NCBI GenBank assembly: GCA_009360885.1 | Contig: SPEL01000008.1 | Span: 1 to 64,000 of the forward strand | DNA from: Sphingobium sp. | GTDB taxonomy: Bacteria > Pseudomonadota > Alphaproteobacteria > Sphingomonadales > Sphingomonadaceae | Direction: 5' to 3' | Length of the DNA stretch: 64,000 bases | Shown: in pieces, positions 25,917 through 61,283 of the stretch | Layout of the letters: each line of letters starts with the position of its first letter | Position numbering within the stretch: position 1 is the first letter of the stretch | Notes under the pieces: generated by a model | What the model saw: only the letters and a program-made list of their open reading frames with translations | Database searches by the model: none | What the model was told of the DNA's origin: nothing | Translations under genes and position numbers: made by a program

Positions 25917-26518
25917 GAAAGCGGCGAGAGATGGCGTTTTCATCACCCTCTGTTGGCCAGATGCACTCTGTAGGTGGCGTGGGACAGGGTGCCGCAGCGA
26001 AGGGGGCGGCATTGGCGCGGCGCAGTCGCTGGGCGATTAGCTTTGCTGATCTTTCCTTGTTGCTTCTGGGCTTTTTCGTGCTGTTACAGGCCAATAGCAG
26101 CCGCCAGCAGGATATTATCAATGGCGTCGCCCAGCAATTCGGCGCACCGGTTGGGCCGAGTGACCGTATCGCGGCCGCAAAACTTTTTCAGCCAGGTGAG
26201 GCGTTGCTAACGCCAGAAGGGCAGGCGCAGCTTACCGCCGTTGCTCACCGTTATGCTGATGGGGGGCAGATGGTCGAAATTCGCTCTATCGGGTTAGACC
26301 GGGGCGTTCATCGCTTTGATGGGTGGGATTTAGCCGCCGCCCGTCTTGGTGCGGTGGCGCGGGCCCTTGCGAGTGCGGGAATAGCGCGCGAGCGTATAAT
26401 AGTGCGCGGGCTGGATCAGGAAGATCAGGGAGAGGCGGGGCAGACCCTTATCCTATCTGCAAAATCGCCGGAAAGTGGCCAAAAATCTTTGGAGACTACG
26501 ATAAACAAGGTCCGATAA
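25913..26518 (+). CDS. second MotB-like stator partner
   Basis: A 201-aa protein with one membrane helix, SRWAISFADLSLLLLGFFVL, that keeps the MotB channel Asp (D46 from the GTG start). The C-terminal region (LLTPEGQAQLTAVAHRYADG, DRGVHRFDGWDLAAARLGAV, ARALASAGIARERIIVRGLD) is OmpA-like: WDLAAARLGAVARAL matches the helix that follows the HTD/xGHxD loop. The loop itself (MVEIRSIGLDRGVHRFDGW) is degenerate, so peptidoglycan binding may be weak. GTG at 25913 overlaps the MotA-like stop; ATG at 25931 is an alternative. Together with the gene before it, this gives the cell a second stator set in addition to motAB. Confidence 0.72.
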   Translation: MRKRREMAFSSPSVGQMHSVGGVGQGAAAKGAALARRSRWAISFADLSLLLLGFFVLLQANSSRQQDIINGVAQQFGAPVGPSDRIAAAKLFQPGEALLTPEGQAQLTAVAHRYADGGQMVEIRSIGLDRGVHRFDGWDLAAARLGAVARALASAGIARERIIVRGLDQEDQGEAGQTLILSAKSPESGQKSLETTINKVR

Positions 26519-26521
26519 GGA

Positions 26522-26688
26522 CTAGTGTGGTGGATTTGAAATACGCCACATTATAGCGGCTAAGCCAAGAGCGTATTTCAAATCCATAAACCACACTAGA
26601 ATCATATATTTGCTAGTGACCTTCATGAATCTAAAGTTCGTTCAACCCTTGCCTAACAATGTGACGAACTTCAGATTTAGGTCACTGG
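26522..26688. repeat. 167-bp double-palindrome dispersed repeat, copy 1
   Basis: It consists of two large palindromes: 26522-26599 (CTAGTGTGGTGGATTTGAAA ... ending CCACACTAG) and 26613-26688 (CTAGTGACC ... ending GGTCACTGG), joined by a 13-bp AT-rich spacer. Arms of the first pair over about 25 bp with a 3-nt bulge. The second has CTAGTGACC and AATCTAAAGTTCGT arms. Copy 2 at 61117-61283 has the same length and I count 6 differences. It starts 3 bp after the MotB-like stop codon and ends 22 bp before the sigma54-type promoter of flgA. Confidence 0.9.
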
Positions 26689-26709
26689 TATCATCATTTC
26701 ATCTCGAAA

Positions 26710-26725
26710 TGGCACGATATTTGCT
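26710..26725 (+). promoter_or_regulatory. sigma54 (RpoN) promoter of flgA
   Basis: TGGCACGATATTTGCT matches the -24/-12 consensus TGGCACG-N4-TTGCW with correct spacing (GG and GC exactly 10 bases apart). It is about 70 bp upstream of the flgA start. A FlbD/FleQ-type activator is encoded at 44217. This is one of the two best sigma54 matches found. Confidence 0.85.
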
Positions 26726-26796
26726 TTTCTCTGTGAGGTAAGGTGGAGCTATGGCCTTTTTAAACGCCGCAGCTTCATAAGCAGGAGGTCAGGCAA

Positions 26797-27372
26797 ATGT
26801 TTCATATGCGCAGGCAAGGCGGTTTTTATGCGATGGGTGCCATTGCCATGGTGGCGGGCGTTTCACCGGTTATGGCGCAAGCGCAGCGATTTGAAAATCT
26901 CGACCGGCTGGATTCCCTTGTGGCGATGACAGTTGGTGCAGCCATTGGTGAGCCGGGTGGGGCCTCCGCACCGGTGGACCGTCGGCTTAAACTGACGGCG
27001 TGCCCGCAACTTCCTGAGGTAAATGGCCCTGTATTCGGGGCAGCTATGGTGGAATGTAAGACGCTGGGCTGGCGTATCAGGGTGCCGCTGCGTGCCGGTG
27101 GGGCGGCCGGTGCGTCTGCTGTGCCTGCATCGGCGCAGCGTTCCGGTGGTTTCGTACGGCCTGCGGCGGCGGAGGTGAAAACCGCTGTTGTGCGTAAGGG
27201 CGATCCGGTACAACTGGTTGCGGGGGGGGGCAGTTTTACGGTCTCGCGCCTGATGGTGGCCGATGAAGATGGCGGGCCGGGGGATATGATCCGTGTGCGG
27301 GAAGACCGCAAATCTGCCCCTATTTTGGCGCAGGTTGTAGAAATCGGTGTTGTTCGTGTTCCGGGGATTTAA
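26797..27372 (+). CDS. flgA: flagellar P-ring assembly chaperone FlgA
   Basis: A 191-aa periplasmic protein. Signal peptide MRRQGGFYAMGAIAMVAGVS with cleavage after VMAQA. The C-terminal SAF domain has AAEVKTAVVRKGDPVQLVAG and GDMIRVREDRKSAPILAQVV, the FlgA pattern (V.rGd.V.l...). The middle has LKLTACPQLPEVNGPVFGAA, a cysteine-containing FlgA segment. FlgA helps FlgI assemble the P-ring. It lies behind a sigma54-type promoter and just before flgM. The ATG at 26797 has AGGAGGTCAGGC upstream, a strong ribosome site. Confidence 0.9.
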   Translation: MFHMRRQGGFYAMGAIAMVAGVSPVMAQAQRFENLDRLDSLVAMTVGAAIGEPGGASAPVDRRLKLTACPQLPEVNGPVFGAAMVECKTLGWRIRVPLRAGGAAGASAVPASAQRSGGFVRPAAAEVKTAVVRKGDPVQLVAGGGSFTVSRLMVADEDGGPGDMIRVREDRKSAPILAQVVEIGVVRVPGI

Positions 27373-61029: not shown

Positions 61030-61090
61030 CTGATGAATCTGAAGCGTGTTTAATGCTGATGCATAGTGCAGCAAGCTTCAGATTTATCAG
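61030..61090. repeat. palindrome between fliD and the double-palindrome repeat
   Basis: CTGATGAATCTGAAGC (61030-61045) pairs with GCTTCAGATTTATCAG (61075-61090) with one mismatch. Inside, TGCT and AGCA pair again. Its GAATCTGAAG core resembles the arms of the second palindrome of the 167-bp repeat (AATCTAAAG/CTTCAGATT), so it may be a relative of that element. It may also end the fliD message, though no T-run follows. Confidence 0.6.
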
Positions 61091-61116
61091 GAACGCGTGC
61101 CCATCAAAATCACCAG

Positions 61117-61283
61117 CTAGTGTGGTGGATTTGAAATACGCCACATTATAGCGGCTAAGCCCAGAGCGTATTTCAAATCTATGAACCACACTAGAATCAT
61201 ATATTTGCTAGTGACCTTCATGAATCTAAAGTTCGTTCAACTCTTGCCTAACAATGTGACGAACTTCAGATTCAGGTCACTAG
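61117..61283. repeat. 167-bp double-palindrome dispersed repeat, copy 2
   Basis: The same two-palindrome unit as at 26522-26688 in the same orientation: first palindrome 61117-61194, second 61208-61283, with the same 13-bp spacer. Comparing base by base I count 6 differences over 167 bp, several of them in paired arms. Here the right end is CACTAG, which restores symmetry with CTAGTG at the left. It ends directly against a TAGGGTCCTGCCC short palindrome and the stop of a small leftward frame. Confidence 0.9.

Follow-up and report, generated by a model that had tools for sequence, protein, structure and literature searches.

A two-hairpin repeat in a flagellar cluster

Within the window, by which we mean the whole 64-kb stretch of Sphingobium sp. 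DNA that was analysed, lie a MotA/ExbB-family gene, a motB-like gene, flgA, fliD and fliS, and such neighbours mark it as a flagellar cluster. Between motB and flgA, starting 4 bp after the motB stop, is a repeat whose second copy is found between fliD and fliS. The two copies have the same orientation and are 97% identical over 165 bp; the first-pass annotation had placed and oriented the second copy correctly while putting the identity at about 96%. The features of the two sites are:

26522 to 26688, + strand: copy 1 of the probable MITE, full length, with left terminus CTAG and right terminus CTGG
26522 to 26599, + strand: hairpin A of copy 1, with arms 26522-26546 and 26571-26599, the inner arm having a 4-nt bulge
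26599 to 26603, no strand assigned: GANTC site (GAATC) of copy 1 at the junction of hairpin A and linker
26600 to 26612, + strand: AT-rich 13-bp linker of copy 1, AATCATATATTTG
26613 to 26688, + strand: hairpin B of copy 1, whose outer arm (the right end read inwards) resembles the transposase-3' terminal repeat of IS630-family ISs
26627 to 26631, no strand assigned: GANTC site (GAATC) of copy 1 in the inner arm of hairpin B
26710 to 26724, + strand: sigma54-type -24/-12 site of flgA, TGGCACGATATTTGC, outside the element, which separates this site from motB
61030 to 61091, + strand: separate degenerate hairpin following fliD and closely preceding copy 2, with 15/15 and 15/16 bases equal to those in the inner arm of a consensus of hairpin B
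61117 to 61283, + strand: copy 2 of the probable MITE, full length, between fliD and fliS, with GANTC at 61194, 61222 and 61269

Folded as DNA, positions 26510-26700 reach -41.6 kcal/mol, whereas 200 shuffles average -14.9 kcal/mol and none of them is as good (z = -9.7). This bears out the earlier description of two inverted repeats joined by 13 bp of AT-rich DNA, which correspond to hairpin A, the linker and hairpin B; the CTAGTG...CACTAG-type ends ascribed to them hold for the left end of copy 1, the right end being CACTGG. No ORF of at least 80 aa overlaps copy 1, and copy 2 is entered by one 203-aa ORF, antisense to fliD. In a structure alignment of 30 near-full-length copies, picked by hand, four helices comprise 49 base pairs with 96.7% of cells paired, and two-sided changes occur in 23 of the 49 pairs, compared with 6.0 in shuffles. 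Each hairpin has a small bulge in its inner arm, and the outer ends of A and B are alike (mean 18.9 of 30 bases), so that the unit seems to consist of two related halves, one inverted relative to the other. At one locus (L016:1501-1659) hairpin A has the opposite orientation to that in the other copies, apparently the result of a flip between the two arms. Judged by its sequence, the degenerate hairpin at 61030-61091 may be a lone hairpin of this family that has decayed.

Covarying arms would also suit a conserved structured RNA, or a bidirectional terminator or regulatory module, with no mobile element involved. Such a module could likewise fit the finding that 15 of 26 classifiable loci (27 examined in the Sphingobium sp. 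assembly) lie between converging ORFs, with 8 co-directional and 3 diverging, counts that depend on crude ORF calls and come with no background rate. Against this, no Rfam family matched at its gathering score (three matches were at chance level, the best with 17.7 bits against 95), no terminator-like site was found in 26400-26900, and copies occur at unrelated loci and are missing from orthologous sites. Paired arms may also be maintained by template switching or as DNA hairpins. The structured RNA that the first-pass annotation had allowed for therefore gained nothing positive beyond the arm covariation, which fits a DNA palindrome equally well, and we regard an RNA or terminator as highly improbable.

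The sigma54 promoter that had been proposed after the element was located, although copy 1 ends 21 bp before the -24/-12 site and not 22 bp. In relatives, the 3' end of motB occupies the stretch upstream of the flgA sigma54-like site, which suggests that the insertion would have displaced any upstream activator site by about 165 bp, if it did not replace it. It had also been claimed that the enhancer region of flgA is occupied; the element does appear to fill the stretch just upstream of the sigma54 site, and the claim stands in a positional sense only.

Dispersed copies and empty sites

The Sphingobium sp. assembly (2.93 Mb in 8 contigs, 79.6% complete) carries the element at 28 distinct places rather than the two seen in the window, 30 matches at E ≤ 3.6e-8 having been reduced by 2 inverted self-hits. 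Eight of these places are 94-100% identical to copy 1, and the rest, many of them partial, are 73-90% identical. The presence of near-identical beside more diverged copies looks as if the element had spread once recently and several times earlier, and the eight close copies within one assembly suggest that the element has been recently active. Relatives carry it as well: matches at E ≤ 1e-15 were found in 32 of 94 Sphingobium genomes, the window's genome counted, in a search that scored part of the candidates in each genome (at most four), so that its copy counts are lower bounds. Beyond the genus, a genome from another Sphingomonadales family (G049) has 13 near-full places and several halves, a copy of 77.6-80.0% identity is present on each of nine Roseibium/Labrenzia plasmids, and an A hairpin on two Sphingopyxis macrogoltabida plasmids. 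Copies are also present in Hongsoonwoonella, Sphingopyxis granuli and several named Sphingobium. Phage records gave no match to the element, and viral contigs gave no exact match to a 25-base pattern of it. The surroundings of the two window copies had been said to share nothing, and this held for the family at large: when the flanks of 62 loci were compared all against all, with 230 bp as the cut, longer alignments arose only between overlapping loci and from one duplicate contig, and long shared flanks of the kind left by a plain duplication were otherwise not found.

Relatives also provided sites without the element. At the site of copy 1, 10 of 11 relatives' loci have a sigma54-like site soon after motB, and the preceding 170 bp run into motB with no element; in the eleventh (L079) no sigma54-like site was found. 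The flanks of a copy in S. chungbukense, about 270 bp apart in that species, are 6-15 bp apart in at least nine genomes (G206, G211, G212, G215, G221, G241, G251, G267 and G271). The empty-site junction was visible in seven of the nine loci inspected, the other two being uninformative. These junctions establish an insertion at the S. chungbukense site, and the insert there consists of the element and, for ~100 bp of its length, a second CTAG-bounded repeat beside it; the same pair occurs again elsewhere in G251. Directly left of the element, this second repeat was seen in two species, at the unrelated sites L063:4006-4105 and L229:522-619, as though the two repeats had travelled together, and the ~100-bp repeat is also present in 16 plasmid records. 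For the Sphingopyxis copy the empty-site search produced no clean junction, and for a copy in G008, whose flanking genes are not shared, it produced more copies and no usable empty site.

Covariation of the arms and empty sites, by which the first-pass annotation had proposed to tell its readings apart, were thus both found; a clean TA duplication of a single element was not caught among the empty sites examined, the S. chungbukense insert containing the neighbouring repeat. The unit is a small dispersed mobile element, one copy of which lies directly before a flagellar gene. That it is non-autonomous and of MITE type, as had been suggested, gained support from its dispersed non-orthologous copies, from the empty sites in relatives and from an end that it shares with IS630.

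CTAG sites and the end shared with IS630

The ends were compared over 67 full-length copies, which match within 4 bases of both ends, lie at least 60 bases from the locus end and are counted once per flank pair, partial copies being excluded. CTAG is read at 115 of their 134 ends and other sequence at the remaining 19. This tetranucleotide occurs 35 times in the 64-kb window, compared with 242 expected from base composition. The ends also bear a relation to the stops of genes: among 117 NTAG ends, frames open for at least 100 codons use the element's TAG as their stop at 29, compared with 9 and 12 for the other frames (p = 3e-4, an approximate value as related copies and antisense frames are counted). 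A pair of converging, unannotated ORFs in G008, 434 and 175 aa long, stops in the element's two CTAGs, as would be expected if the empty site, here inferred, had been a four-base tail-to-tail CTAG overlap. In Roseibium, the left CTAG contains the end of an annotated SDR gene, and an annotated thioesterase gene stops past the right end.

Among the matches listed, isolated matches to element positions 134-165 in G011, G007 and G008 correspond to one end of an IS. The product of the IS that shares this B end is a 366-aa IS630-family transposase (NF033545 at 284.8 bits, with an NCBIfam cut-off of 100, and Pfam DDE_3); relatives of it at E ≤ 1e-20, some of them distant, are present in 27 of 94 Sphingobium genomes. 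Aligned in register, the consensus outer end of B agrees with the transposase-3' end of IS630 elements at 27 of 30 bases. Over the 67 copies the mean is 24.3 of 30, whereas shuffled ends average 8.9 and never exceed 19, and four unrelated IS630 ends average 12.8; the outer end of A is weaker in its agreement with the IS ends (means of 19.6 and 19.4 of 30). Where both ends of the IS are readable they start with TAG, preceded in nearly all by C, which is expected of insertion at CTAG. The B end in Roseibium is CTAGTCACCC, the first ten bases of which are the same in the matching IS end on two Rhizobium plasmids.

The IS is found, whole or partial, in 75 plasmid records, mostly from Agrobacterium, Rhizobium and Sphingobium. 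At least 80% of it is held by 35 of these, and 56 of the 75 are typed as conjugative, which suggests a possible route by which transposase could be supplied to genomes without their own. No IS630 transposase was found in the Sphingobium sp. assembly, at 79.6% completeness, or in the Hongsoonwoonella genome (G118).

Other mobile DNA was seen at the same sites. At four G049 loci (L130, L131, L132 and L133), IS5-family ISs sit at CTAG sites in or beside the element, as does another repeat with ends like those of a G049 IS630 (TAGAGTGAATTG), so that these copies serve as landing sites for CTAG-targeting elements. The IS5-family insertions were considered as a parent of the element and rejected, their ends being mismatched and the element's CTAG sites being merely what they use; a degraded IS630 that adjoins a half copy in G008 was likewise rejected for its different terminal repeat.

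The dispersal, the absence from orthologous sites, the shared end sequence, the CTAG context and the stop-frame bias are best explained by a non-autonomous miniature transposable element, about 165 bp long and of IS630/Tc1-mariner type, and we consider this identity of the unit very probable. Its outer ends would then be the terminal repeats on which an IS630-family transposase acts in trans; the transposase would excise the element, insert it at the TA of CTAG and duplicate the TA, leaving both ends to read C-TAG. Each end would be folded on itself as a separate hairpin, A and B being related inverted halves joined by the linker. CTAG being rare in this DNA and able to hold a TAG stop, copies would gather just behind genes; such a target would explain both a low-damage spread, by landing at TAG stops, and the nesting of these elements in one another. 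As the assembly yielded no IS630 transposase and the empty sites no clean TA duplication, we infer mobilisation by IS630 in trans and duplication of the TA by the element itself.

A different mover is implied by the REPIN-like reading, which the first-pass annotation had also offered. REPINs are inverted pairs of imperfect palindromes with a linker, and GTAG is their tetranucleotide. The element would in that case be two inverted palindromes forming a doublet, with a RAYT, or Y1 single-strand transposase, cutting at CTAG as its mover, and its two related inverted hairpins, each with an inner-arm bulge, do have a REPIN-like topology, including the linker. Y1 genes are also slightly commoner in element-bearing genomes (6 of 17, against 3 of 13, among 30 chosen genomes), yet 11 of these 17 have none, and Y1_Tnp was absent from the Sphingobium sp. 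assembly searched. None of the 11 Y1 loci in the 30 genomes (2.0-3.4 kb each) contains the element, the best BLAST match having an E of 0.19. The element further differs from REPIN/RAYT systems in that no linked RAYT was found, its tetranucleotide is CTAG rather than GTAG, and its B end matches those of IS630. We therefore did not retain the REPIN-like label and hold a Y1 mover to be very unlikely. Y1 genes of RAYT-like size were observed among repeats unrelated to the element at L097 in G049 (GGGGACAGTATACTATTT) and at L095 in G006 (GTAAACTGGCACCGTAATTTC).

GANTC sites and relation to known repeats

GANTC occurs 2.54 times per copy over the 67 full-length copies; mononucleotide shuffles have 0.57, and the window has 0.17 for every 167 bp. 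Among 30 representatives of pairwise identity below 88%, GANTC is kept in the linker in 26 (N being A in 21, T in 3 and G in 2), in the inner arm of B in 24, in the outer arm of B in 22 and at the matching places of A in none; the two B sites lie opposite each other in one stem and hence are not independent. In the IS630 group (30 loci examined, L134-L163), the transposase-3' terminal repeat has GANTC at positions 10-14 in 24 of 24 resolved cases (11 distinct ends, with N = A, T or C), a conservation whose weight is limited by shared descent and which in the closest relatives may be preserved by coding, as the transposase gene ends inside the terminal repeat. The opposite IS end has GANTC at these positions in 0 of 23 resolved cases, and further in for 7 of the 23. 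Plasmid copies of the IS have it in the transposase-3' end at the same position in four of four. The B end of the probable MITE has GANTC at the place that matches this IS end, and the MITE has two further sites.

We raise as a speculative possibility, to which we would give the lesser chance, that transposition of the alphaproteobacterial IS630 group and of two-hairpin MITEs is gated by CcrM methylation, with CIR repeats belonging to the same class. Such elements would be a CcrM counterpart of IS10 and IS50, which are Dam-controlled. A conserved CcrM site in one end would make cell-cycle control of transposition directly testable, and CcrM is described as widely conserved in alphaproteobacteria (PMC3667746 and PMC5172544, excerpts). 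The same sites could instead belong to a CIR-type, CcrM-associated repeat that the host retains for some function linked to methylation, its mobility being incidental. Two arms, a linker and GANTC, here in 26, 24 and 22 of 30 representatives, are features given for CIR (PMC2229807, excerpts), but the sites of the element are non-orthologous, its copy number is uneven among genomes, and 62 of 94 Sphingobium genomes are without a match at E ≤ 1e-15. We give a host-kept repeat very little credence.

For sphingomonad or Sphingobium MITEs, palindromic repeats and IS630 derivatives, searches of the open-licence PMC literature yielded one review and no other paper. Returning to the IS630-type element, it is short (165 bp), dispersed (28 places) and without its own transposase, as is a MITE, and it has a terminal repeat in common with an IS630-family IS at its B end and more weakly at its A end. 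IS630 MITEs do not usually consist of two hairpins. We would class the element with the IS630-type MITEs and call its build CIR-like, a likeness that is one of description.

Among known systems, RUP of Streptococcus pneumoniae is a 107-bp MITE whose attribution to IS630-Spn1 rests on comparable evidence (PMC2229807, excerpts). As described in that source, RUP is like our element in being short and intergenic, in its IS630-family-like ends, in its TA-containing target and in its tendency to lie at ISs. The element differs in its length of about 165 bp, in the hairpin in each end and in its CTAG target; RUP enters ISs, whereas in G049 the ISs sit in or beside the element. IS630 and ISY100, of the Tc1/mariner family, target TA and duplicate it (PMC2170065, excerpts), and an IS630-associated transposon prefers TA in CTAG, to go by a title cited there (Tenzen and Ohtsubo 1991, via PMC2170065). 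Unlike IS630 and ISY100, the element has no transposase gene.

CIR of Caulobacter (Chen and Shapiro 2003, via PMC2229807, excerpts) has two arms, a linker and conserved GANTC, and its mobility is said to need more information. Two long inverted repeats, a linker, conserved GANTC, an intergenic position and a common occurrence among alphaproteobacteria are features of CIR and our element alike, but CIR is about 110 bp long with GANTC at or partly in the terminal loop, whereas the element has 165 bp with GANTC in the linker and the B stem. For two-armed, GANTC-bearing alphaproteobacterial repeats, which are reviewed in these excerpts without established mobility, the element suggests both a mover and a target rule.
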